A DNA stretch of 64,000 nucleotides from Caldicellulosiruptor danielii. GTDB taxonomy: Bacteria > Bacillota > Thermoanaerobacteria > Caldicellulosiruptorales > Caldicellulosiruptoraceae. The notes beneath the pieces are model-generated. The model saw only the letters and a program-made list of their open reading frames with translations, had not been told where the DNA came from and did no database searches. The stretch spans positions 953,001 to 1,017,000 of the forward strand of contig NZ_CP139957.1 in assembly GCF_034343125.1 (NCBI RefSeq). The letters are read 5' to 3'. Made by a program: the position numbers and the translations under genes. This document shows, piece after piece, positions 13,701-34,220 of the stretch (position 1 is its first letter; every line of letters begins with the position of its first letter).

Positions 13701-13828
13701 TGCCATCCGGGATTTTAACGCTCATGCAGGTTTCAGTGTGTGTTGTGATAGGACTTGTTTTGCTTGCATTTTACCTGCTGCCACTTTTGTTCAATAGTTT
13801 GATGAGGATAAAAAGGGATATAGTATAA
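10748..13828 (+). CDS. MMPL/RND-superfamily transporter
   Basis: A large inner-membrane protein of 1026 residues in the MMPL family, related to Bacillus YdfJ. It has two RND halves: an N-terminal helix, a membrane block at about 180-350 with the GIGTDYNLLIISRF motif, and a second block at about 870-1026 with ALGIDYSVFLLIRF. Between them an extracytoplasmic region (about 480-750) is full of heptad-like coiled coil. The family exports lipids or drugs; the substrate here is unknown. I prefer GTG 10748 (MRTILKRPW) over the in-frame GTG 10739, which lies in the ribosome binding site. The last 70 bp are duplicated downstream at 18238, 22113 and, partly, 28505 and 34221. Confidence 0.88.
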   Translation: MRTILKRPWVSIILWAFIALFFVITMPDINKLVRLKGEPRIGSTYPSQVAAALEKEYQGIPKDKKLSTIAIVFYDRNGLSAKDYSVARQIIDELDTKKEKYSVENVSTHFKNSELKSYYVSSNNKVVLASIQVNKTKREIIEIRDDIYRYIDSVEKPKSLEIYLTGGDLITQDFVKASEDGVKKTDIITIVFIIIVLVLVFRSPVTPIVSLLTVGVSFLVSLSLVGHLTDRFNFPINTFTRTFIVVSLFGIGTDYNLLIISRFKEELANGKNIDEAILTTYKTAGRTVIFSCLTVFAGFSAFAAASFNFFRAMVAIAISVLVLLLVLLTLVPAVLKIFGKNLLWPFNKEIKHTHSKLWENAARLSTRYPYVVLTTVVILCIPFLLSVRGDLSFNTLNELSEKYKSVRGFNIISKNFSIGKTFPVTIYLKSDRSLATSDALASVEKISEILSKQEGIKEVYSVTRPQGKVIDEFTLSKQADTVIKGIDSIKDGLVKVNSAIEEINRNLNMSTKEFDVQKLISGISQLENGIYTVKVSLEKINDGFEKGLDGSQKVYAGLEELSKGSGRLSSGFKEFYTQYTASINSLKNKMLGFDISQIELLVSSIKSAGQNLKALSAKYPELAKDINYLMALEIISRIEDQSNVLVSKVKEFSSEYQNISNKISEADRALKLISSSIDAISAASKQLATAQGQIVDGYTRIYKGQKEVISGTELMYSKLKEFDTQKEQILMKVNQLETGISSLKSGLLQISDALEKMTDSMQKFKDYFEGYKNTNIFYVPPEALKSSNFEKALDSYMDKSRKITKIILILDTNPYTNKAIDIVDNVEKVLKNSLEFVDTKFTEFGVGGISSSNHDLRSIYFKDFRTLRLIMIISILLLMFIISRSIFNAAAVVTIVFIDYYLALSITEMIFKGIFKYEALNWAVPFFTFVVFLALGIDYSVFLLIRFYEYRNLELSEALKFTSANIGHVVTSAVIILAGTFAAMLPSGILTLMQVSVCVVIGLVLLAFYLLPLLFNSLMRIKRDIV

Positions 13829-13854
13829 AAATGCTCTTAAAAAGCAATTTAGAT

Positions 13855-13888
13855 AGCTGTCTCCAGAAAAGGGAGCAGCTTTTTGTTT
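13855..13888 (+). terminator. Terminator of the MMPL gene (R1)
   Basis: AGCTG-T-CTCC pairs with GGGAGCAGCT across an AGAAAA loop, followed by TTTTGTTTG. The same hairpin is kept in R2, R3 and R5 with changes in the arms that preserve pairing, for example AGCTGCCC/GGGCAGCT in R2. Confidence 0.85.
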
Positions 13889-13971
13889 GTATGAAAACAT
13901 AAGAAAATTAAAGAAATTTGGAGATATTTAAAGAAAGGGGGAGCTGATAGCAAAAAATTGCATAAAATTAA

Positions 13972-14010
<39 letters not shown>

Positions 14011-14014
14011 GAGC

Positions 14015-14044
14015 TTGACAGAATAAAAATTAACAAAGTAAAAT
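14015..14044 (+). promoter_or_regulatory. Cassette 1 module promoter
   Basis: TTGACA (14015-14020), 18-bp spacer, TAAAAT (14039-14044). The boxes and the 18-bp spacing are identical in all five module copies apart from TAGAAT in R4 and R5. The conservation against drifting surroundings supports function. Confidence 0.8.
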
Positions 14045-14218
14045 TGAGGTAATAATGTCAGGCAGAATTTTAGTAAATATGGCAATTTGAATATTGTCTT
14101 TTGTAAATAAGATATATTGTATGCAAACAGGATGGTATAACAGAGAATTCAAATAGAGAATATTAAAACATGTTTTATATATAATTATTGAGCTTTAAAT
14201 TTATCTTACAAAAATACT

Positions 14219-14272
14219 TTGACAGTCGTTCATTTAATTTATTACATAAAACGCTCATAATGAGCGTTTTAT
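14219..14272 (+). promoter_or_regulatory. Second promoter-like sequence with 27-bp perfect palindrome
   Basis: TTGACA at 14219-14224 lies 18 bp from TACATA (14243-14248), a weak -10 box. Starting inside it is a perfect inverted repeat, ATAAAACGCTCAT (14246-14258), one central A, and ATGAGCGTTTTAT (14260-14272). Its place over a -10/start region suits a repressor operator; it could also form an RNA hairpin. It occurs only in this cassette. No T-run follows the arms beyond the TTTT they contain. Confidence 0.55.
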
Positions 14273-14320
14273 AAATTAAATTACAAAATATTCTTACATG
14301 AAAGGAGGTGCTAATTAGCA

Positions 14321-14395
14321 ATGAAAAATTACTCTAAACCTGTTGTTAAAAGGATAGTTAGAGGTTTAGTAGTACTGGGCGGTCACAAAGTTTAA
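14321..14395 (+). CDS. 24-residue cationic peptide, probable precursor for radical SAM modification
   Basis: A short gene behind a perfect AAAGGAGGTG ribosome binding site (14301-14310, 10 nt spacing). The peptide starts MKNYSKPVVKR and ends LVVLGGHKV. It has four Lys, two Arg, one His and no acidic residue or cysteine. It precedes an exporter, a PqqD-like protein and two radical SAM/SPASM enzymes, the usual setting of a ribosomally made, modified peptide. Size and an early KP resemble PqqA, but it lacks Glu and has one Tyr, so it cannot give PQQ. Without Cys it is not a sactipeptide or ranthipeptide. The modification is unknown. Confidence 0.8.
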   Translation: MKNYSKPVVKRIVRGLVVLGGHKV

Positions 14396-14400
14396 ATCAT

Positions 14401-14433
14401 TAGTGGCAAGTCACTTTTAGTGACTTGCCACTA
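14401..14433 (+). promoter_or_regulatory. 14-bp perfect stem-loop between peptide gene and exporter gene
   Basis: TAGTGGCAAGTCAC (14401-14414), loop TTTTA, GTGACTTGCCACTA (14420-14433). There is no T-run after it, so it is more likely a partial terminator or an RNA-stability or processing element that keeps the peptide message more abundant than the downstream genes. Comparable hairpins sit after the first genes of cassettes 2 and 5. Confidence 0.75.
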
Positions 14434-14458
14434 CCAACAAGAAACGTGAGGGGATTTT

Positions 14459-15643
14459 ATGTTAGCTTATTATATAACAATTTTTCTAAAAGGTTCTGCA
14501 AAAGGGTTGTTTTTTCCCATTTGGATATTGCATATGTCAAACAACAAAATTTCTTTATTTTTTATTGGGATATTAGGTTCAGTTTTGGAGACAATTAGAT
14601 TTATTACAGAAATTCCTTTTGGGGCATTTGCAGATAAATATGGTAGAAAAGTTTCGATTTTTTTGTCAGCTTTTTTATATTCTATAGCTTTTTTCTTATT
14701 TTCGTTTGGAAATACAGTTTATATGCTTGTATTTTCAGTATTGATAATGGGATTAGCTGATTCTTTCGAATCTGGAGCATTAGAGGCATGGTTAGCTGAT
14801 CATTTGATTCAGAAAGGGGAAGCCGGTAAACTTGATAATGAGTTGAGAAAAATGTACATTATTTTGATTGCTGGAAGTATTATTGGCGCAATTTTTATAA
14901 CCTATTTATACAGAATAGATACTATTATGCCATTTTTAGTATCAGCAGTATTGTGTTTGATTGCAGCCATAATAACCTATATTTTTGTACCTGAATCGTT
15001 GCCAATGTCTCATCAATCGAATATTGATACGTCAATAATAAATAAAGTGAAATTATCTGTTTCTTATGTGTTATCAAGTAAAACTCTATTATTTTTGTCA
15101 TTAGCAATGTTTTTATTTGCAATAGGATTTGATGGTATAGAAAGATTTTATCAGACATATTTAAAATTTAAAAAATTCAACGTTTTTTGGATAAGCAATA
15201 TATATATAATTAGTGCTATTTTTAGCCTTGTGTTTATGTTTTTACAAAACATATTGATTAACAGTAAAAAGGACTATTTGCCAATAATAGGAACTATAAA
15301 AATTTCAATGTTTATAATACTAACTGTTGCTATCTTCATAAACATAAATATTGTATCATATTTATGTTTAGTCTCTTTTTTTGTATTAGAAGTTATTTTT
15401 AGACCTTATCTTCAAAGCTATTTAAATAAAATTATTGACTCTGAAATAAGGGCTACTACATTATCTTTTTTTCAATTTGCAGAAGCTAGTGGTGAAATTT
15501 TGGCAGGTATAGGAATTGGTTACTCTATAAAGTTTTTAGGTATTTCATATGGTTTATTTGTAAGTTCTGTATTTATTTTAATTTCGGGTTTAGTAGTTTT
15601 TGTTTTGTTGTTCTTTGAAAGAATATATTCAGATGCTAATTAA
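14459..15643 (+). CDS. MFS transporter, probable exporter of the cassette 1 product
   Basis: A 394-residue membrane protein with about 12 helices. The major facilitator motif A is visible between helices 2 and 3 as GAFADKYGRKVS. It starts at ATG 14459 behind GTGAGGGG, 26 bp after the stem-loop. PqqD-like and radical SAM genes follow at once, so it most likely exports the modified peptide or gives self-protection. Most peptide natural products use ABC exporters, so an MFS protein here is less usual. The substrate is inferred only from context. Confidence 0.85.
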   Translation: MLAYYITIFLKGSAKGLFFPIWILHMSNNKISLFFIGILGSVLETIRFITEIPFGAFADKYGRKVSIFLSAFLYSIAFFLFSFGNTVYMLVFSVLIMGLADSFESGALEAWLADHLIQKGEAGKLDNELRKMYIILIAGSIIGAIFITYLYRIDTIMPFLVSAVLCLIAAIITYIFVPESLPMSHQSNIDTSIINKVKLSVSYVLSSKTLLFLSLAMFLFAIGFDGIERFYQTYLKFKKFNVFWISNIYIISAIFSLVFMFLQNILINSKKDYLPIIGTIKISMFIILTVAIFININIVSYLCLVSFFVLEVIFRPYLQSYLNKIIDSEIRATTLSFFQFAEASGEILAGIGIGYSIKFLGISYGLFVSSVFILISGLVVFVLLFFERIYSDAN

Positions 15644-15660
15644 AATGGGGGGATGTCTAA

Positions 15661-15924
15661 ATGCCTTCATATAAGCGAGTAGAAGTGGATTATAGAATCT
15701 TTAAAAATGGATATTTATTTAGTAATGGAATTGCTTTAAACAAAACAGCTTTTGAAATATGGGAATGTTGTAGAGAACCTGTAGATGAGAATATAATTGT
15801 AAAAAAGTTTTTTGAAAAATATAGTCCTCAGTCTGATGAAGATAAAAATATGATTATTGAAGATATAAGAAATTGCTTGAATTTACTGATAGAAGGGAAT
15901 CTTATCGAAAGGATTGATGAATAA
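15661..15924 (+). CDS. PqqD-like peptide-recognition protein (RRE)
   Basis: An 87-residue protein with the PqqD fold signature: an N-terminal beta pair, LNKTAFEIWECC in the first helix and a C-terminal winged-helix end, NLLIEGNLIERI. PqqD-type proteins bind the leader of the precursor peptide and present it to the radical SAM enzyme. The stop codon directly abuts the ATG of the next gene, so the two are coupled. It is one of the best arguments that the 14321 peptide is a modified product. Confidence 0.85.
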   Translation: MPSYKRVEVDYRIFKNGYLFSNGIALNKTAFEIWECCREPVDENIIVKKFFEKYSPQSDEDKNMIIEDIRNCLNLLIEGNLIERIDE

Positions 15925-17031
15925 ATGGAATTAGTAGATACTTCTATTGGTATAAGGGAGATATTAGGTGATATACCAATACTTGCTGCTTCAATAAGAG
16001 TAACTAAAAGATGTAATGCGTTTTGCAAGCATTGCTATGGTAACTCAGGTGAGCCATTTAATAATGAGTTAACTACTCGAGAAATTAAGAAGCTAATAGA
16101 TGTTTATAGTGATGAATTTGGAGTAAAGAAAATCTTTTTTACAGGTGGTGAACCATTTGCAAGATGTGATATAGTAGAGATATTACAATATGCGTACTCT
16201 AAAAATATGGAAATATTAATAAGTACTAATGGTTCTCTACTCACAAAAGATATACTAAAAGAAATACAAAATATAAACTTTTCTATGTTTCAAATTAGTA
16301 TTGATGGACCTAAAGAAATTCATAACAGAATTAGAGGTGATGGATTTTTCGAAAAAGCAATAAATGCTTTAAAATTATTAAAAGAATTGAATTTTAAAAA
16401 TGTGACAGTAGCCACATGTCTCATGAAAGAAAATTATGATCAGATTAATAAAATAATTGATATTGTGGTTGAATATGAAGTTGATATATATTCTTTAGTT
16501 TTACTTTTAGTAGCTGGTAGAGCTAATAGAGAACTAGATGTAACTTCGCAAGAATTAAGAGTGGCTATTAATGATTTATTTGATGCTTATAGAAAATATA
16601 AAGGGAAATTCAAGTTTGCAGAAAATAGTATTATTCCGCCAGCTTTAGTACCTGCCGATTTACGAGAAGAAGGTCTGCATAAGCAATTTGAGGTATGTTG
16701 TGCATTTCCTAATATCATAGGTATTGAAGCAAATGGTAGTGTTGCTCCGTGTGATGGTTTTTTTACTTTTCCTGAATATATTGCAGGAAACATAAGAGAA
16801 TCTTCTATCTCGAATATATGGGAAAAGTCTAATGTATTTTCAAAATTATCCATACTAAATAGATTGGATATTAAAGGTGTTTGTAGTAAATGTATATTTC
16901 TAAGTACATGTGCAGGTAGTTGTCGTGCTTCAGCATACGCGTATTATAAAGATATAAATGCACCGTTTCCAACGTGCCAGAAATTATATGAAGACGGTCT
17001 TTTCCCGCCGGATTGTATAATGGGGGAGTGA
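15925..17031 (+). CDS. Radical SAM/SPASM peptide maturase A
   Basis: A 368-residue enzyme. The radical SAM cluster motif is C30-NAF-C34-KH-C37, followed by FFTGGEP for SAM binding. A C-terminal SPASM domain shows CAFPNIIGIEANGSVAPCDG, then CSKCIFLSTCAGSC and a last Cys near PTCQ, enough for two auxiliary iron-sulfur clusters. Enzymes of this class, such as PqqE, make carbon-carbon, thioether or other crosslinks in peptides. It is a paralogue of the next gene; both share IPIL.AS..VT, NIIGI..NG.VAPCDG and the C-terminal cluster. The reaction cannot be read from sequence. Confidence 0.9.
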   Translation: MELVDTSIGIREILGDIPILAASIRVTKRCNAFCKHCYGNSGEPFNNELTTREIKKLIDVYSDEFGVKKIFFTGGEPFARCDIVEILQYAYSKNMEILISTNGSLLTKDILKEIQNINFSMFQISIDGPKEIHNRIRGDGFFEKAINALKLLKELNFKNVTVATCLMKENYDQINKIIDIVVEYEVDIYSLVLLLVAGRANRELDVTSQELRVAINDLFDAYRKYKGKFKFAENSIIPPALVPADLREEGLHKQFEVCCAFPNIIGIEANGSVAPCDGFFTFPEYIAGNIRESSISNIWEKSNVFSKLSILNRLDIKGVCSKCIFLSTCAGSCRASAYAYYKDINAPFPTCQKLYEDGLFPPDCIMGE

Positions 17032-17040
17032 ATTTTAGAA

Positions 17041-18126
17041 ATGTTTATGAATGGTGAAGATATTTTTAGTAGCATACCAATATTATCTGCTTCGGTTAAA
17101 GTTACTCGCAAGTGTAATTTAGGTTGCAAACATTGTTATGTAGCAAGTAAAAATTTTGATTATCAAAGTGAACTATCTGTTAGTGAAGTTAAATTGATAA
17201 TTGAACAGTTATATGATGCAGGATGTATAGATTTGTATTTAAATGGTGGAGAACCTTTTCTAAATGAAAACATATTAGAAATTTGTGAATTTGCACATAA
17301 TAAAGGGTTGAGAATTTCGGTAAGTACTAATGGAATTACTATCAACGAAGAAATAATAAAAATATTATCAAAGTTTAATTTGAAGATTTTTCAAGTTAGT
17401 ATAGATGGATTGGAAGAAACACATGATAAAATAAGAAATAAGATAGGAGCTTTTAGAGAAGGAATAAAAGCATTAAATTTAGCAAAGAGATATTTTAAAA
17501 ATTCTGATACTACAGTGATAATGGCAACAACATTAATGGAAGATAACAAAAATCAAATTTTAAAGTTATATGATTTAGCCTGTGAATTAAACGTTGATAC
17601 ATATGCATTAATTCCATTATTTCCAACAGGAAGAGCTTGTCCTGCAGTAGATGTATCAGTTAAGGAAAAAATAGATATTTTTAATGACATTGCAAAATAT
17701 TATATAAACAAAAATGCTTCTACTGAGCTAAGTCTTATTTTACCACCTGGTTTAATACCAAAAGAACTATCAACAAGAAAGTATGGAAAAGGTTACTACT
17801 GCACATTCCCAAACATAATAGGAATTGATTCAAATGGGAATGTAGCACCATGTGATGGTCTATTAAATACAAATGAGTTGATTATTGGTAATATTAGAGA
17901 GAAAACTGTTGAAGAATGCTGGTATAGTTTTGTAATGAAGGAAATAAGAAATATCACACTGAATCAATTAAAAGGAGTCTGCTCAATATGTAAATTTCTT
18001 TCTACTTGTAGAGGTGGATGTAGAGCTTATGCATATATCAAAACAGGCAGTTTTTATGCTTCTGATCCATTATGTCAGGAAATTTACGAAGCTGGTTTAT
18101 TTCCTAAAGAATCTTTACAGACATAG
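17041..18126 (+). CDS. Radical SAM/SPASM peptide maturase B
   Basis: A 361-residue paralogue of the preceding enzyme. The cluster motif is C25-NLG-C29-KH-C32, then LYLNGGEPF. The SPASM domain has CTFPNIIGIDSNGNVAPCDG and CSICKFLSTCRGGC. It starts at ATG 17041 (or 17047), 9 bp after the previous stop. Two adjacent SPASM enzymes suggest either two successive modifications or a heterodimer. A decayed copy of its C-terminal 200 codons lies at 33628-34215. Confidence 0.9.
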   Translation: MFMNGEDIFSSIPILSASVKVTRKCNLGCKHCYVASKNFDYQSELSVSEVKLIIEQLYDAGCIDLYLNGGEPFLNENILEICEFAHNKGLRISVSTNGITINEEIIKILSKFNLKIFQVSIDGLEETHDKIRNKIGAFREGIKALNLAKRYFKNSDTTVIMATTLMEDNKNQILKLYDLACELNVDTYALIPLFPTGRACPAVDVSVKEKIDIFNDIAKYYINKNASTELSLILPPGLIPKELSTRKYGKGYYCTFPNIIGIDSNGNVAPCDGLLNTNELIIGNIREKTVEECWYSFVMKEIRNITLNQLKGVCSICKFLSTCRGGCRAYAYIKTGSFYASDPLCQEIYEAGLFPKESLQT

Positions 18127-18330
18127 TTTATATTTTTTGTTTTATTGGCAAACCAAATATTCCATAAACTGTACTTTAATCAAGAATTTTAGCTTTGATA
18201 GAATTTTATATTCTCATTGTAATAGAGCTATTTTTACTTTTGCATTTTTCCTGCTGCCGCTTTTGTTCAATAGTTTGATGAGGATAAAAAAGGATATAGT
18301 ATAGAAATGCTCTTAAAAAGCAATTTAGAT

Positions 18331-18365
18331 AGCTGCCCTAAGAAAAGTGGGCAGCTTTTTGTTTG
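18331..18365 (+). terminator. Terminator in R2
   Basis: AGCTGCCC (18331-18338) pairs perfectly with GGGCAGCT (18349-18356), followed by TTTTTGTTTG. It would end cassette 1 transcripts. Confidence 0.85.
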
Positions 18366-18451
18366 TATGAGAACATAAGAAAGTTAAAGATATTGGAAGA
18401 AAGAGAGAGATAATAGCTAAAAATTGCATAAAGTTAACTAATAAAAAAGGT

Positions 18452-18481
18452 TTGACAGGATAAAAAATAATAAAGTAAAAT
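18452..18481 (+). promoter_or_regulatory. Cassette 2 module promoter
   Basis: TTGACA (18452-18457), 18-bp spacer, TAAAAT (18476-18481), matching the other module copies. Confidence 0.78.
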
Positions 18482-18628
18482 TAAGGTAATAATGCCAGGC
18501 AGAATTTTAATAAATATGGCAATTTGAATATTGTTTTTTGTAAATAAAATATATTGTATGCAAACAAGATGACAAACCAGAGAATACAAAAATATTGAAA
18601 CCTGAATACAGTTGATAAAAAATTTTGA

Positions 18629-19018
18629 TTTACAGAGGCATCAACCTTTTTTATGTTAAATACTATTGTTGCTACTTTTGCTGGAACAACTTTAAAAACA
18701 GCACAAAATTCAGTACAATACTATTCGTGGTGCGGTGTTCCAGTATTTGGACTGGGTGTAAAAGGCCATTATTCTTCAGATGGCTCCAGAATTGTTGACT
18801 ATTTTACCACTTATAGCCTTCCATGGATAAATACTTTATCGCTCTGGCAATATAGTGATGCTCAATCTTCATGGATTGATACAACAAATCCCAAAAAGGG
18901 TATTTGTGAAGCAAAAGCTAAGTTTACTTTAGGTGTTGGTGTGCAAGCACAGTATATTTTTATAGGTCTTCCAGTACAAACAAGAGATGTCTTTGTTCAG
19001 GCTACAGCATTGCCTTAG
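18629..19018 (+). pseudogene. 5'-truncated gene joined to the module leader
   Basis: The frame is open from 18629 and has its first ATG at 18653, giving 121 residues. That ATG lies directly at the point where the leader repeat breaks off inside its hairpin. There is no ribosome binding site and no signal peptide, unlike the first genes of cassettes 3 and 4. The protein is not recognised. It is rich in aromatic residues (YYSWCG, SLPWINTLSLWQYSD) and ends in a beta-like stretch, AKFTLGVGVQAQYIFIGLP, as in small exported proteins. I read it as the C-terminal part of an exported product gene whose start was deleted; a working short gene cannot be excluded. Confidence 0.5.
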
Positions 19019-22071: not shown

Positions 22072-22213
22072 AGAAAATAATAAGTATTTTTAAAATTAAT
22101 TTCCGATTAGGTCTTGTTTTGCTTGCATTTTTCCTGCTGCCACTTTTGTTCAGTAGTTTGATGAGGATAAAAAGGGATATAGTATAGAAATGCTCTTGAA
22201 TAGCAATTGAGAT

Positions 22214-22246
22214 GGCTGCCCTAAGAAAAAGGGGCAGCTTTTTGTT
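22214..22246 (+). terminator. Terminator in R3
   Basis: GCTGCCC (22215-22221) pairs with GGGCAGC (22232-22238), followed by TTTTTGTTTG. Confidence 0.82.
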
Positions 22247-22345
22247 TGTAGAAAAAACAAAAGAAAATTAGAGAAATTTGGAGATATTAGAAGAAAGAAA
22301 AAGCTGATTGCTAAAAATTACATAAAATTAACTAAAAAAACGGGT

Positions 22346-22375
22346 TTGACAGCACAAAAGATAATAAAGTAAAAT
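22346..22375 (+). promoter_or_regulatory. Cassette 3 module promoter
   Basis: TTGACA (22346-22351), 18-bp spacer, TAAAAT (22370-22375). Confidence 0.78.
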
Positions 22376-22531
22376 TAAGATAACAATGCCTAGCAAAATT
22401 TTAATAAATATGGCAATTTTAATATTGTCTTTCGTAAATAAAATATATTGTATGCAAACAGGATGACAAATCATAGAATACAAAAATATTGAAACCTGCA
22501 TACAGTTGATTAAAGATTTTGATTTACAGAG

Positions 22532-22568
22532 GCATCAACCTTATCATGGGCGCTCATGAGAGGGATGC
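22532..22568 (+). ncRNA. Leader hairpin, copy in R3
   Basis: The stem CCTTATCATGGG / CTCATGAGAGGG has one mismatch and two G-U pairs, with outer GCATC (22532-22536) and GATGC (22564-22568) also complementary. It lies between promoter and ribosome binding site. The arms covary with the copies in R4 and R5. Confidence 0.6.
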
Positions 22569-25561: not shown

Positions 25562-25671
25562 TTGCTTTTTGTTTGTAGAAATATAAGAAAATTTAAGAAA
25601 TTTAGAGATATTTAAAGTAAGAAAGAGCCAATGGCTGAAAATCGCAAAAAATTAAGTTAAAAAAAACGAGT

Positions 25672-25701
25672 TTGACAAAGTAAAAGTTAATAAAGTAGAA
25701 T
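25672..25701 (+). promoter_or_regulatory. Cassette 4 module promoter
   Basis: TTGACA (25672-25677), 18-bp spacer, TAGAAT (25696-25701). Confidence 0.76.
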
Positions 25702-25862
25702 TGAGGTAGAAATTACAAGGAGAATATTAGTAAATATATCAGCTTTCTTATTACCCTTCTCAAATAAGATAGATTGCTTGTAAATAGGGTAATATACCTG
25801 AGAATATAAAAAAGAAAATATTTAATTTAATTTCAAAAAATTTTGACTTGAATTGGCATTAA

Positions 25863-25886
25863 CCTTTTATGGGTGCCCATGAAAGG
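25863..25886 (+). ncRNA. Leader hairpin, copy in R4
   Basis: CCTTTTATGGG (25863-25873), TG, CCCATGAAAGG (25876-25886): an 11-bp stem with one G-U pair. At the pair where R5 has A-U this copy has G-C, a compensatory double change. Confidence 0.62.
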
Positions 25887-28491: not shown

Positions 28492-28563
28492 ACAAATTTT
28501 GTATAATAATTTGATGAGAATAAAAAAGGACAGAGTCTTAAGAATTTTTTAAAGAGGATTAGA

Positions 28564-28600
28564 AAGCTGCTTCCAAGGGGTGGGGGCAGCTTTTTGTTTG
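28564..28600 (+). terminator. Terminator in R5
   Basis: AAGCTGC (28564-28570) pairs with GCAGCTT (28586-28592), extended by CC/GG pairs, and is followed by TTTGTTTG. Confidence 0.8.
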
Positions 28601-28699
28601 CGAAAAAACATGAGAAAATTTAAGAAATTTAGAGATATTTAAAGAAAGAGAGAGCTGATAGCTAAAAATTGCATAAAATCAACTAAAAAAAAAACGAGT

Positions 28700-28729
28700 T
28701 TGACAGAATGGAAATTAATAAAGTAGAAT
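28700..28729 (+). promoter_or_regulatory. Cassette 5 module promoter
   Basis: TTGACA (28700-28705), 18-bp spacer, TAGAAT (28724-28729). The predicted leader to the first start codon is about 250 nt. Confidence 0.78.
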
Positions 28730-28921
28730 TGAGGTGAAAATTCCAAGGAGAATATTAATAAATATAGCAATTTACATATTGCTTCTCGCAAATGAGATAG
28801 TTTATATGCAAATAGGATAGTATGCCAGGAAATATAAAAAGAATATATTGCAACATGTTTATGTTTGTTACCATTATTTGTCTATTTGTTTATTATACTT
28901 AAAAGATTACAAGTTACAATG

Positions 28922-28984: not shown

Positions 28985-29134
28985 ATGTGTTATATTTATA
29001 TGCCTGATTATCCAGGTTACCTAAGAAGCAGTAAAGGTTGTGCAGCATGTTCACTTTGCGCTATTTGTTTGTCTGATGGTCCAATACCTGACTTTGAGGG
29101 TTTTGCTATAGCTGGTATAGCAGGACTTTTCTAA
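28985..29134 (+). CDS. Subtilosin-A-like sactipeptide precursor
   Basis: A 49-residue peptide behind GGGAGGTGA. After a leader of about 16 residues it reads KGCAACSLCAICLSDGPIPD, then FEGFAIAGIAGLF. Subtilosin A has KGCATCSIGAACLVDGPIPD, then FEIAGATGLFGLWG. In subtilosin, Cys4, Cys7 and Cys13 link by thioethers to Phe31, Thr28 and Phe22. Here those cysteines are kept and an extra Cys sits at core position 10. Three residues (GFA) are inserted after FE, adding a Phe. The Thr acceptor is replaced by Ala or Ile and the GLWG tail is missing. The AlbA-like gene downstream supports the assignment. Confidence 0.9.
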   Translation: MCYIYMPDYPGYLRSSKGCAACSLCAICLSDGPIPDFEGFAIAGIAGLF

Positions 29135-29195
29135 TATCTTTTCTGAAATGTATAGTGCTATTGATTAAAAAGAGAAGGTTTATTTAAGTAGTTGT

Positions 29196-29220
29196 ATTAA
29201 AAGGGGCGCCCCCTTTTAAT
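29196..29220 (+). promoter_or_regulatory. Stem-loop between sactipeptide gene and maturase gene
   Basis: ATTAAAAGGGG (29196-29206), loop CGC, CCCCTTTTAAT (29210-29220): a perfect 11-bp stem with only a weak TATTATT tail. It is probably a partial terminator or stabiliser that favours precursor over enzyme. Confidence 0.75.
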
Positions 29221-29245
29221 TATTATTAAAAGAGAGGAGATCTAA

Positions 29246-30598
29246 ATGAATGATTTAGAAAGTTTATATATTTCTATTAGTGATGACTTTGAATTATTAA
29301 AATTTCCAAGTTATGGAATTTTAAGGAGAAAAGTGAATTCTAACATAAATCAAAATAACAGGATGGAATTGGGAAAAAACAGTACGGAAGGAACTGTTGA
29401 ATTAATAAATAAAGAAGCTGTAAAAGTATTAGAATTTTGTGATGGAAAAAGAAAGTTGAAAGAAATTGTTGAAATGTTTTCGTATGGAGATCATGTACGG
29501 AGAGAAAAAATAAAGCAGTTTTTGATTCAAGCGGTGAATAAAGGGCATTTGGTTTTAAAAGAAAAAAAGCGAATTATATCAGTATCTAATGTTAAAGGTA
29601 AAGATGACTATTATTTGCCAGCTCATCTTGTTATTGAGCTTACAGATGACTGTAATTTAAAATGCGTACATTGCTATCGAACTAACTCAAGGGGTAAATA
29701 CATAGACTATGACTCGTTGAAATCTTTACTACATATTCTTTCTACCGAAACAGTTTGTAGTGTGGAATTTACAGGTGGAGAACCAACGTTACATCCAAAT
29801 TTCCTGGAAATAATGGAATTTGCAGTCCAACGGTTTTGGTTGGTGGGAATACTTACCAACGCGGTTGAGCTTACAGATGAAGTTTTGGAGAAATTATCAG
29901 CTTACAGAGATCGAGTTTTTTGGAGTATAAGTCTAGATAGTCATGATGAAAATTATCATGATAGATTTCGTGGAAGAAAAGGAGCATGGATACAGACTGT
30001 AAATAACATTAAAAAAATAGTATCACAAGGGTATTTTGTAAGAATTTCAATGTGCGTAACGCATGAGAACATTCCTCATATTAAGAGCGTTGCGGAATTG
30101 TGCTCAAAAATGGGAGTGAAAGCATTTTCATATAGTCCGATACTTCCGTTCGGGAAGTCATATGACTATATTTGGCAATATAATGATATACTAAAACTTT
30201 CTGAAGAAGACAAATATGTTAGACAAAAATATGGAAATATTATTCCATATATTCAATTAAAAGAATTTAATAAGGAGCATATTAATGAAAATTGTGGAGC
30301 AGGATGGTAATCAATTGTTATAGACCCTCAGTTTTATGTACGACCATGTGTGATGGCTGATCCTAACAAAGATGTTATTGGTAAGATAGAACCATTTGCT
30401 CCTCTTTCATTTTTTGAATCACGAAAAGAAATAATAAATAAGTGGGCAAATCTTAAAAGTCCTCAAAGTGAAATTTGTGGTGAGTGCAACTTTTTAAACT
30501 TTTGCGTACCATGTCCGTTACGTGTAAGAAGACTTTTTGAGGGAGGGTTTATAGATAGAAAGAAATGTATTTGGTATAATACTGTTGATATATTTTAG
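29246..30598 (+). pseudogene. AlbA-like sactisynthase, interrupted by in-frame TAA
   Basis: Read through, this is a 450-codon frame, matching AlbA (448 residues), the enzyme that forms the subtilosin thioethers. Features in order: an N-terminal RRE-like domain (about 50-110), the radical SAM motif C136-NLK-C140-VH-C143, FTGGEP, LTNAVEL, SISLDS..E..HDRFRGRKG, and a SPASM domain with NCGAGW, VRPC, CGECNFLNFCVPC and KKC. TAA at 30308-30310 replaces the Lys codon of GAGWKSIVI, a one-base change from AAA. The C-terminal half could not supply a full SPASM domain alone, so the product is probably inactive unless the stop is read through or is an error. Confidence 0.85.
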
Positions 30599-30635
30599 CC
30601 ACAAATGGAAACGGTGATGAAAAAGGAGGATATGA

Positions 30636-31088
30636 ATGGAATATTATATATGGATGTGCTTTGGATTGGGCTTTTACGGTTATTTTAAGTTTGCTTATAC
30701 AATTTGGAAAGGAAAGAATATTATAAAAAATGTTGGTCGTAATGTTGATTCGAGCATAGATAAACTAAGATTAATTGATATTATAACGGGTATAATGGCT
30801 CTTTTAGTATCTTTTATTTATAAAGTCCAAAATTTTAATGACTCTTTATTTGTGATAATTACTCTATATGGAGTGGTTTTGATCATAAAGGGACTAAAGG
30901 GATTTTCAAAAGGATTGCAGAAGAATATTGTCTGTAGAAAAGTTTATAACTATATTGCAAATTCTTATATAATATTTTCTATCTGGTTGTTATCTAGTGT
31001 AATTGAAGCAAAAGGAATAGAAGGAGGTACAATAGCAATATTAGCACTGTACTTTGCTACCTATTATATCATTTGGAAGATAGTATAA
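30636..31088 (+). CDS. Small membrane protein of the sactipeptide cassette
   Basis: A 150-residue protein with four or five predicted membrane helices and a basic loop after the first (KFAYTIWKGKNIIKN). It lies between the maturase and the ABC ATPase, where alb clusters carry small membrane proteins (AlbB, AlbD) linked to immunity or export. No clear sequence match to them is visible. Start ATG 30636 follows AAAAAGGAGGATATGA. Confidence 0.65.
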   Translation: MEYYIWMCFGLGFYGYFKFAYTIWKGKNIIKNVGRNVDSSIDKLRLIDIITGIMALLVSFIYKVQNFNDSLFVIITLYGVVLIIKGLKGFSKGLQKNIVCRKVYNYIANSYIIFSIWLLSSVIEAKGIEGGTIAILALYFATYYIIWKIV

Positions 31089-31210
31089 CTGTAATAATTC
31101 AATTGACAGGAACTAAGTGACTATTAGTATCGAATAAAAAGCAAAAAAGAATATTGAATGTTTTAGACGGGAAGTTTTGTTTACGTAAAAAATGGGGGTT
31201 GTACTTGAGA

Positions 31211-32026
31211 ATGAAGATAATAGAAGTAAAAAATTTAAGAAAGAGCATGAATAACAAGCAAATTCTCAGAGATGTAAGTTTAAATATTTATGAAGGGGAA
31301 ATTTATAGTTTATTGGGGCCAAATGGAGCTGGTAAAACTACTACAATTTATACTTTGTTAGGGCTACTTAAAAAGGATGATGGAGAGGTAAAAATTTTTG
31401 GTGAAGAACTTTCGAAAAAACATTTCAAACAAATAGGGGTTATGTTTGAAATAGAAACTTATAATTTAGAGTGGTCTGTTATAGATAATTTGAAGCATAT
31501 GTGTTATTTGTTTGGAGTAGATGAACATAAAATATATGATTATGTTGAAATGTTAGACTTAAGAAAGGAAGACTTTTGTAAAAAATTCAAGCAACTTTCA
31601 AAAGGAACAAAGAGAAAAATTTCATTAATTGGTGCTTTAATACATGATCCTAAAATACTTATTCTGGATGAACCTACATCTGGGTTAGATCCAGAAATTC
31701 AAGTAGTTTTTAAGAAGCTGTTGCTTGATTTAAAAAAGAAAGGTAAAACTGTACTTCTTGTTTCTCACAATTTATATGAGGTACAGGAAATTAGTGATAG
31801 AATCGGATTTATAAAAAGCGGTGAAACAATTTTCGAAATACCTGTTTCAGAAAAGTTTTATTTGGTAGAAGGAGATTATCCTGAATTTCAAACCTATCGA
31901 GTGAAAAACAGCAAATTATATGTTTTTGATGAGAAAATGTTTCTAAAGATTAAACCAAAGAATTATCAGGTGACAGAAAAATTAGAAGATTTATACATTA
32001 AATTTATAGAAAAGAGGGTTGGTTAA
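31211..32026 (+). CDS. ABC transporter ATP-binding protein (AlbC position)
   Basis: About 271 residues. Walker A is LLGPNGAGKTTTI, the signature LSKGTKRKISLIG, Walker B ILILDEPTSGLD, switch LLVSHN. It belongs to the ABC-2 export/immunity group, like AlbC of the subtilosin cluster. I start it at ATG 31211; TTG 31205 fits the GGGGGTTG site equally well, and an in-frame ATG at 31154 lacks support. The permease gene follows directly. Confidence 0.87.
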   Translation: MKIIEVKNLRKSMNNKQILRDVSLNIYEGEIYSLLGPNGAGKTTTIYTLLGLLKKDDGEVKIFGEELSKKHFKQIGVMFEIETYNLEWSVIDNLKHMCYLFGVDEHKIYDYVEMLDLRKEDFCKKFKQLSKGTKRKISLIGALIHDPKILILDEPTSGLDPEIQVVFKKLLLDLKKKGKTVLLVSHNLYEVQEISDRIGFIKSGETIFEIPVSEKFYLVEGDYPEFQTYRVKNSKLYVFDEKMFLKIKPKNYQVTEKLEDLYIKFIEKRVG

Positions 32027-32683
32027 ATGTTTTTTAAAATGATAAAGTTAGAAGTCAAAAATTACATTAAAAACGCAGTTATATTATTACTAATTTTAAA
32101 CATTGCGATTTGGTATGTACTAAAAAATTTTGAACAATTTCTTAATTATTTAGAAGACAAACCTTCGATAAGCTTATTTTATACATTGTGTGTTGTAATA
32201 ACTATTTCATATTCAATTGTATTTATAACAACCATTAATTTCGATAAAGACAAGAATAGTTACGTTTATCATAGATATTTTACATCGCCTTTAAGTAATA
32301 CATTGATAATTTTATCAAAGGTTATTCCGGTTTTAATTATAAACTCAATAACCGTTTTCATATGGGTTACCTTTATTTTGTTAAAAAGTCATTTGAATAA
32401 CATTTATTTATTTCTTTTTGTTATCCTTACCGTTTTTGTGTTTTCGTTAGGATGTATATTCATAATTTATTCGGTAAGCCTCACTACGAAAAACAGTGTA
32501 TTGGTAAGTGGAATAAAATTTTCACTTGTTTTCTTATTTTCGTATATTCCTAAATTGGTATCTTCGAATAATATATCAATTCAAGTTTTAAAAACTGGAC
32601 TTGTATTGTTATGTTGGGGAGTATTTATTGTTGGTTTAGTGATACTTAAAAGGATAAATGTAGAAAAGATAATAACAAGTTAA
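32027..32683 (+). CDS. ABC-2-like permease of the sactipeptide cassette
   Basis: A 218-residue protein with six predicted helices. It begins at the ATG directly after the ATPase stop and so is coupled to it. It is short for an ABC-2 permease but has the usual layout of one N-terminal helix, a loop and five clustered helices. It is the likely partner of the 31211 ATPase for export of, or immunity to, the peptide. Confidence 0.75.
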   Translation: MFFKMIKLEVKNYIKNAVILLLILNIAIWYVLKNFEQFLNYLEDKPSISLFYTLCVVITISYSIVFITTINFDKDKNSYVYHRYFTSPLSNTLIILSKVIPVLIINSITVFIWVTFILLKSHLNNIYLFLFVILTVFVFSLGCIFIIYSVSLTTKNSVLVSGIKFSLVFLFSYIPKLVSSNNISIQVLKTGLVLLCWGVFIVGLVILKRINVEKIITS

Positions 32684-32758
32684 TTCAAACATTTGAAGAA
32701 ACTAATAAATCCGATAATAGCAAGTATCTGCTTCCAAAAAGAAGGAGGATTTTTTATT

Positions 32759-32930
32759 GTGAGAAAGCAAAAAATTGAAGAATTTAAAGATATTTGGAGT
32801 AAAAGTGTTAATGATAAAATAAAATCGTCAGAAATGACACAAAAAATTTTTCACCTGGCAATTCCAAAAATGCCTTCTGTAGTGCAGAATATGGTATGTA
32901 AAAACTACAAAAGGAGAAAACGAGGGGTTG
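32759..32930 (+). pseudogene. 5' fragment of an unidentified gene, cut by IS21 debris
   Basis: A good AAGGAGGA site precedes GTG 32759, and about 50 codons follow (KQKIEEFKDIWSKSVNDKIK...). The frame then runs into insertion-sequence sequence. The peptide has no recognisable domain. Alb clusters carry peptidase genes (AlbE, AlbF) at this place, but no zinc motif is visible in the fragment, so it stays unassigned. Confidence 0.5.
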
Positions 32931-33610
32931 CTGACAATAGCAATGTATATTACAATTCATACATTATACGAACGGTGATGCAAAAAAGCCAAATATAGCC
33001 AGAATGTTGGACATTGATAGAAAAACTGTGAGGAAAGTAATCAAAGATATTGAACAGAAGAGAATGTCAGCATCAATGGGACTGCCGGGAACAGGAAAGA
33101 CTTATCTTGCAATAGCGTTGGAATTAAAAGCTGTGTCATTGGGCTATGGGATTCTGGTTACAACAGTAAATAGGATGCTTAAAGATTTATACATTTCAAG
33201 AGCAGGTAATTCATATCAGCAGAAACTAAAAAAAATACGTCAATGTGGACTTGTTGATTTTAGATGAATTGTGACTGAGGAAACTGAATCAAAGTAGTGT
33301 AGATGATTTTTATAAGATAGTTGCGAAAAGATATGAGAAAGATTCAACTAAATAATAACAACGAATAAGGTATTTGAAGGAATGGCCGAGGATATTTTAT
33401 GATCCGGTACTGGCGACAGCAATACTTGATAGGTTTGTACATCACTGTCATTTTGTAGTTATCAAAGGAGAAAGCTATATGATGAAACAAAGAGAAGACG
33501 TGATAAAGACTATTAGTGAGGAGACCAAAAATCCATTAAATGATAGTAATCAATTTTTTACCTTCAGGCGGGGAGGAAGAATATTGTCAAAAGTGGAGAA
33601 AAAGTATTGA
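32931..33610 (+). mobile_element. IS21-family remnant (istA/istB fragments)
   Basis: An IstA N-terminus reads MYITIHTLYER, then after a frameshift GDAKKPNIARMLDIDRKTVR, the helix-turn-helix of IS21 transposases. An internal deletion joins it in frame to the IstB ATPase Walker A, GLPGTGKTYLAIALELKA. After more breaks, the IstB C-terminus appears: EWPRIFYDPVLATAILDRFV and VVIKGESYMMKQRE. None of the pieces is complete, so the element is dead. It separates cassette 5 from the decayed maturase copy. Confidence 0.82.
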
Positions 33611-33627
33611 CAATAACAAATAATAGC

Positions 33628-34215
33628 AACAACATTAATGGAAGATAACAAAAATTAAATTTTCAAGTTATATGATTTAGCTTGTGAATTAAACGTTGAT
33701 ACATATGCATTAATTCCATTACTTCCAACTGTAAGAGCTTATCCTGTAATAGATCTCCCGGTAAAAGAAAAATAGATATTTTTAGTGATATAGTTAAAAA
33801 TTTACAAATAAAAATACTTCTGCTAAACCAAGTATTATTTTACTACATGGTTTAATACCAAAAGTATTATCAACGAGAAAGTATAGGAAAGGTTATTACT
33901 GTACATTTCCAAACATAATAGGAATTGATTCTAATGGAAATGTAGCACTTTGTGATGGTTTATTAAATATAAACGTAAATATAAATGAATTAATTATTGG
34001 AAAGATTAGAGAAAAAACATAGAAGAATACTGGTACAGGAAATAAGAAATATCACTATGAATCAATTAAAAGGAGTCTGTTCAATGTGTAAATTTCTCTC
34101 TACTTGTAGAGGTGGCTATAGAGCTTATGCATATATCAAAACAGGTAGTTTTTATGTTTCAGATCCATTATGTCAAGAAATTAAAAAGCTGGTTTATTTC
34201 CTAAAGAATCTTTAA
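33628..34215 (+). pseudogene. Decayed copy of radical SAM maturase B, C-terminal part
   Basis: Nucleotide similarity to 17524-18126 begins at GCAACAACATTAATGGAAGA and continues nearly to the end of the gene, including the YCTFPNIIGIDSNGNVA and CKFLSTCRGG segments. It is broken by an AAT-TAA nonsense change, frameshifts near 33770 and 34020, and substitutions such as GGC-TAT that remove SPASM cysteines. The radical SAM half is missing. It shows that a cassette-1-like unit once lay at the right end of the array. Confidence 0.88.
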
Positions 34216-34220
34216 AAATA

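Follow-up and report, generated by a model that had tools for sequence, protein, structure and literature searches.

A short operon in the window (the whole 64,000-nucleotide stretch of DNA analyzed here) probably encodes a complete RRE-guided mini-RiPP pathway, with a 24-mer precursor and two SPASM enzymes acting on its C-terminal core; we put the probability of this reading at roughly 70%. It is supported by a conserved peptide frame, a leader motif, an RRE fold, intact enzymes under selection, the operon arrangement, and a sister family of cassettes. Within-genus comparisons draw on 12 genomes, and the genome that holds the window is G000, a single 2.82-Mb contig.

Results

Layout of the operon

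The operon is encoded on the forward strand. It begins with the precursor peptide gene, MKNYSKPVVKRIVRGLVVLGGHKV (14321-14395), a conserved frame with a strong Shine-Dalgarno site and an RRE-binding motif. An MFS transporter gene follows (14459-15643; Pfam MFS_1, E = 7e-23; dN/dS ~0.3), whose product is presumed to act as an exporter and/or in self-protection, and then a gene for a PqqD-like RiPP recognition element, a predicted leader-binding chaperone (15661-15924; Pfam PqqD, AF2, and Foldseek). Two radical SAM/SPASM enzymes, enzyme 1 (15925-17031) and enzyme 2 (17041-18126), complete the series. The successive gaps are 63, 17, 0, and 9 nt, and we therefore regard these genes as one operon. 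An earlier note on this DNA had given the same sequence, coordinates, and gene order, with the MFS gene between the peptide and the PqqD-like gene, and all of these were recovered. It was also right that no dedicated protease lies beside the cassette; no quorum regulator adjoins it either.

Two structured elements accompany the precursor gene. Upstream lies a near-perfect 23-bp palindrome, AAAACGCTCATAATGAGCGTTTT (14248-14270; no strand assigned), that folds at -14.1 kcal/mol (z = -5.3). It occurs once in the window, where 0 copies are expected by chance, and is kept in G001, G004, and G007; it may be an RNA hairpin or an operator of some regulator. A 15-bp hairpin (14401-14433, forward strand; -24.8 kcal/mol, z = -7.5) separates the precursor gene from the rest of the operon. 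This hairpin lacks a T-run, and in G007 its loop is changed from TTTT to AAAA with the stem retained. An Rfam search returned no match.

The 24-mer as the precursor

The operon very probably has the 24-mer as its precursor. Its Shine-Dalgarno site, AAAGGAGGTG (14301-14310, forward strand), was read directly and places GGAGG 12 nt ahead of the start codon. The earlier note had called this site perfect; the motif itself is near-perfect, but the 12-nt spacing is long relative to the 7-8 nt seen in the 18-mer cassettes described below. The whole 24-codon frame is kept at homologous loci in a further three genomes from the genus (G001, G004, and G007), with 22 of 24 residues identical and I12V and L19M as the changes. 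Across these genomes the ORF is 97% identical at the DNA level, versus ~83% for the promoter region. A degraded lineage (G005, G008, and a second site in G004) has transposase-like remnants, which we read as IS21-type, in place of the 5' half of the gene. The last 13 codons are still in frame there; counting the stop codon, three changes are synonymous and one is a replacement. The GGHKV C terminus is invariant in all copies, those of the degraded lineage included. There are just four close copies of the 24-mer, too few for conservation to rank its core residues.

We also scanned intergenic frames of 14-80 codons between 13850 and 18150, outside the four large genes. Only the 24-mer combined a Shine-Dalgarno site with an intact frame in G001, G004, and G007; the other small ORFs in this interval were rejected as precursors for want of the site and of conservation. 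No longer precursor was found near the enzymes. The earlier note had named two findings that would refute it, loss of the frame at homologous loci or a longer precursor near the enzymes in relatives; both were checked, and neither was seen.

A PqqD-like protein and a matching leader motif

The PqqD-like protein scores 25.5 bits against Pfam PqqD (cut-off 23.4). A confident AlphaFold2 model (pLDDT 90.5) predicts an RRE fold closest to lasso TbiB1 and PqqD: the top Foldseek matches were TbiB1 with a lasso leader, PqqD, and another lasso B1, at probabilities of 0.98-1.00 and with modest E-values (best 0.008). Discrete lasso RREs have a published binding motif, [Y/W]xxPx[L/V/I/F/A] (PMC13381572), and the 24-mer fits it as Y4-S-K-P7-V-V9. 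Among the 949 window ORFs of 15-60 aa, five have this motif near the N terminus and five have a GGAGG site; the 24-mer alone has both (1/949). The operon thus has what RiPPs with a discrete RRE generally have, namely, a PqqD-fold protein and a precursor with an RRE-binding motif.

Because of the RRE fold and the Y4-x-x-P7-x-V9 motif, we assign residues ~1-15 as the likely leader and LVVLGGHKV (~16-24) as the putative core. Tyr4 is then probably a leader contact and not a modification target. The earlier note had counted Tyr4 and the lysines among possible targets; both Tyr4 and Lys6 fall within the YxxPxV motif, where a role in recognition is the better reading.

Sister cassettes with an 18-mer

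A sister family of cassettes, in which an 18-mer gene and a hairpin accompany a single SPASM enzyme, an MFS exporter, and a PqqD-like protein, was seen in this genus and in a second one (G000, G001, G008, G015, G020, and G032). The 18-mers share the pattern MKK.[P/L]II..M..GCD..H. Every cassette gene is intact in G008 (18-mer MKKQPIIVEMFAGCDSIH). G032 has the 18-mer MKKSPIIRQMVVGCDNVH, the hairpin, one SPASM gene, the MFS exporter, and a PqqD-like protein that at 21.9 bits falls slightly below the Pfam cut-off. The layout is the same in G015 and G020, with broken SPASM genes, and in G001 an 18-mer remains next to a ruined enzyme. The window's own genome has a copy elsewhere (MKKQPIIVEMFAGCDSRH; L216 4134-6800, equivalent to C1:1768633-1771299); its SPASM gene has a frameshift within an A-run, owing to either real loss or a sequencing error. 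Such frequent decay would fit a competition trait under turnover.

The 18-mer cassettes and the window operon have in common a tiny precursor, the leader spacing, a hairpin, SPASM and PqqD-like proteins, and an MFS transporter. In both, a strong hairpin lies 3' of the peptide gene, and the spacing P-[IV]-[IV]-x-x-[MI]-x-x-G is common to the 24-mer and the 18-mers except in G015, where P is L. The 18-mer cassettes differ in having a single enzyme, the gene order rSAM-PqqD-MFS, and a Cys-containing core, GCD..H; their SPASM enzymes are ~35% identical to those of the window, and the MFS and PqqD-like proteins are only distantly alike. The amino acids of the 18-mers are conserved across genera despite diverged DNA. 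This conservation, together with recurrence in two genera, is the best argument that the 18-mer and 24-mer sets are peptide-maturation systems. Beside distant SPASM genes, tiny ORFs with Y/F/W-x-K/R-P or P-x7-G were chance matches only, the 18-mer cassettes excepted.

In the second genus (L140 3565-8005, L217, and L244), an HTH-TPR (RRNPP-like) regulator and a hydrophobic ORF of 44 aa flank the 18-mer cassette and by sequence resemble a peptide quorum-sensing pair. An integrase-like gene lies near the G032 copy. The second-genus cassette is possibly a quorum-controlled mobile RiPP.

Two intact SPASM enzymes

Enzymes 1 and 2 are paralogous, as the earlier note had proposed: they are 41% identical, both match Pfam Radical_SAM and SPASM, and both carry CxxxCxxC and seven SPASM cysteines. 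Both are under purifying selection (dN/dS 0.15-0.17; 0.15-0.16 for enzyme 1 and 0.17 for enzyme 2) and are intact in G000, G001, and G007. The structure model of enzyme 1 is poor (pLDDT 61).

One SPASM enzyme suffices in the sister cassettes, enzyme 2 is disrupted in G004, and the window contains a decayed enzyme 2 copy at 33518-34217. It could thus be argued that one enzyme is the working maturase and the other a regulatory protein or a duplicate being lost, leaving a single modification on the peptide. We consider this unlikely, given that in G000, G001, and G007 neither enzyme is disrupted and purifying selection acts equally on the two, and that both keep all of their cluster cysteines.

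NCBIfam profiles (TIGR04053, heme enzymes, WgkB, MftC, and ScmF) matched both enzymes below threshold only, and neither enzyme reached any curated peptide-maturase cut-off. Orthologs of the pair are confined to this genus among the 398 genomes of the phylum searched. Searches of plasmids, phages, viral contigs, and genome contigs found no relative of the cassette and only generic SPASM enzymes at ~25-34% identity. Matches of ~200 bits in the phylum were rejected as relatives; they lie in heme loci, as adjacent pairs with hemB-like tails upstream, and those tested fall on a separate branch.

Two features of the system fit a quite different reading, in which the enzymes have a heme-type or other small molecule as their substrate, and the 24-codon frame, together with its hairpin, would serve as a translated leader or an attenuator. 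The profile scores also resemble NirJ/AhbC/AhbD, many relatives of which are adjacent pairs in heme loci, and a strong hairpin directly follows the 24-codon ORF. We give this reading a low probability. First, the operon includes a PqqD-like RRE, and the peptide carries an RRE motif. Second, in a midpoint-rooted tree of 24 sequences both enzymes group with MftC and the 18-mer-cassette enzymes and split from NirJ and the NirJ/AhbD-like group (support 99/98), and there are no heme genes near the operon. Third, the absence of a T-run from the hairpin and the retention of 18-mer amino acids across genera, though the DNA has diverged, also count against it.

The surrounding region

The cassette is flanked by two forward-strand copies (13764-14175 and 18240-18648) of an ~400-bp repeat that comprises an MMPL gene end and a promoter-like TTGACA-18-TAAAAT. 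Further copies lie at 22123-22542, 25564-25868, and 28497-28860, giving five in the window of ~300-430 bp; two of the five have the promoter-like sequence, and a different operon follows each. Every one of the 12 genomes in the genus has the repeat, its copies clustering for the most part in a single region of the chromosome, which looks like a cassette-swapping hotspot.

A 121-aa ORF (18653-19018) that matches nothing in Pfam or NCBIfam lies directly downstream of the second flanking copy, with ABC transporter genes after it. A second RiPP cluster occupies 28985-34217. Its precursor, of 49 aa, is subtilosin A-like (Pfam PF11420, E = 4.8e-13). The cluster also includes an AlbA-like SPASM gene frameshifted near 30307 and ABC transporter genes (31154-32683), and it ends in transposase-like remnants and then the decayed enzyme 2 copy.

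Discussion

Proposed pathway

We suggest that the N-terminal half of the 24-mer, from Y4-x-x-P7-x-V9 to G15, docks onto the PqqD-like protein, which would hand the peptide to two SPASM enzymes working in sequence on LVVLGGHKV. Housekeeping proteases might then free the modified tail, and the MFS protein would export it as a product of ~5-9 residues with a role in competition or signaling. Binding, the order of the reactions, the cleavage site, export, and the activity of the product are what we infer from this arrangement. The most likely chemistry, at the level of a guess, would be the formation of C-C, C-N, or aliphatic ring links in which His22, Lys23, or the valines take part. What counts against the mini-RiPP reading is that no curated maturase cut-off is reached, that the cassette has no dedicated protease or quorum regulator, that close copies of the 24-mer number just four, that the Shine-Dalgarno spacing is long, and that the enzyme 1 model is poor.

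GGH is a classical copper/nickel-binding terminus, and cleavage after L19 would free the invariant GGHKV as a metal-binding peptide, but this is very improbable: the operon is without metal genes, two radical enzymes would be superfluous for such a peptide, and the cousin 18-mers end in GCD..H instead.

If the RiPP reading holds, this ranks among the smaller radical-SAM peptide systems that are self-contained, with a 24-aa substrate, an RRE, and two enzymes in a thermophile that also has a one-enzyme cousin. It would offer a test bed for thioether-free chemistry and for the division of labor between paired SPASM enzymes on one short core, and it bears on RaS-RiPP-like systems outside streptococci. 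The earlier note had raised the possibility of a new class of modified peptide. A modified peptide is very probable; a new class is possible but unproven, and its parts have precedents. We offer only tentatively the stronger proposal of an undescribed Cys-free mini-RiPP class of thermophilic anaerobes, in which the paralogous SPASM pair installs a new linkage on a His/Lys/Val/Gly core and a sister one-enzyme GCD..H class shares the same genomes.

Comparison with known systems

Several known pathways were weighed and set aside. The Pro-to-Gly spacing of the 24-mer is, we presume, comparable to that of PqqA (P-x7-G, a lead only), and PQQ loci likewise pair a short KP-containing precursor with PqqD and PqqE. 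Neither Pfam nor NCBIfam indicated PqqA homology of the 24-mer, however, and PQQ biosynthesis was rejected for want of a Glu/Tyr pair and of pqqB/C and for PqqE scores of 94.8 and 97.4 bits versus a cut-off of 381. Composition alone (0 Cys, 0 Glu, 0 Trp, 1 Tyr) bears out the earlier note in excluding both a literal PQQ product, with no Glu and one Tyr, and a thioether; with no core Cys as thioether donor, the 24-mer is not a sactipeptide or ranthipeptide. Profile scores argue against mycofactocin (MftC, 145.4 and 103.7 bits versus 265), SynChlorMet (ScmE/ScmF, <=147 bits versus 400, with no ScmD match for the PqqD-like protein), and the heme enzymes NirJ/AhbC/AhbD (<=169 bits versus 500-650, besides the separate branch and the lack of nearby heme genes). 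Lasso TbiB1/TbiA has the same RRE fold, as the best structural match, and the same YxxPx[hydrophobic] leader motif; the window has SPASM enzymes instead, and a lasso peptide was rejected since the B2 transglutaminase-like protease and the C cyclase are missing from the operon. TvgB converts the Val of TVGG repeats to cyclopropylglycine (PMC9062424). There, as in the 24-mer, Val stands beside GG, and the enzyme that modifies it is a radical SAM protein from the same broad subfamily; the TVGG precursor is repetitive, and the likeness is an analogy limited to Val-x-Gly-Gly. The His and Lys of the 24-mer call crosslinking enzymes to mind, again as an analogy.

By architecture, the nearest characterized system is the WGK RaS-RiPP (tryglysin) of Streptococcus, composed of wgkA (21 aa), wgkB (SPASM), wgkC (RRE), and wgkD (transporter) (PMC8092268). 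The two share a very short precursor, a SPASM enzyme, a discrete PqqD-type RRE, a transporter, and the lack of an operon protease. Tryglysin is a 7-mer from the precursor C terminus that inhibits streptococci (PMC8092268), and we place the window product at the C terminus too. The WgkB profile is among the better scores for both enzymes (145.8 and 145.9 bits versus a cut-off of 650). Membership in the WGK family was nonetheless rejected: the maturases fall far below 650 bits, and the 24-mer has no Trp/WGK motif. No adjacent Rgg/SHP was found in the window cassette; an HTH-TPR regulator and a small hydrophobic ORF do lie beside the 18-mer cassette of the second genus. A WGK-type Lys-Trp link is impossible because the 24-mer lacks Trp, and the window operon differs further in its two SPASM enzymes. 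The earlier note had considered this combination of parts unusual, which does not hold for streptococci: RaS-RiPPs there join precursors, the shortest of just 21 aa, to an RRE protein, a transporter, and a SPASM enzyme (PMC8092268), and two RaS enzymes occur in some operons (PMC13361665). RaS-RiPP products of 8-14 residues, some of them Cys-free, have been detected in S. thermophilus, for example bicyclostreptin SWSKSHGH (PMC12445099); with its HGH, this product is, like the proposed window core, Cys-free, short, and rich in His, Lys, and Gly, although sequence and host differ. Judged by these analogies, the window system most likely works like a RaS-RiPP of the tryglysin type, yet belongs to no described family.
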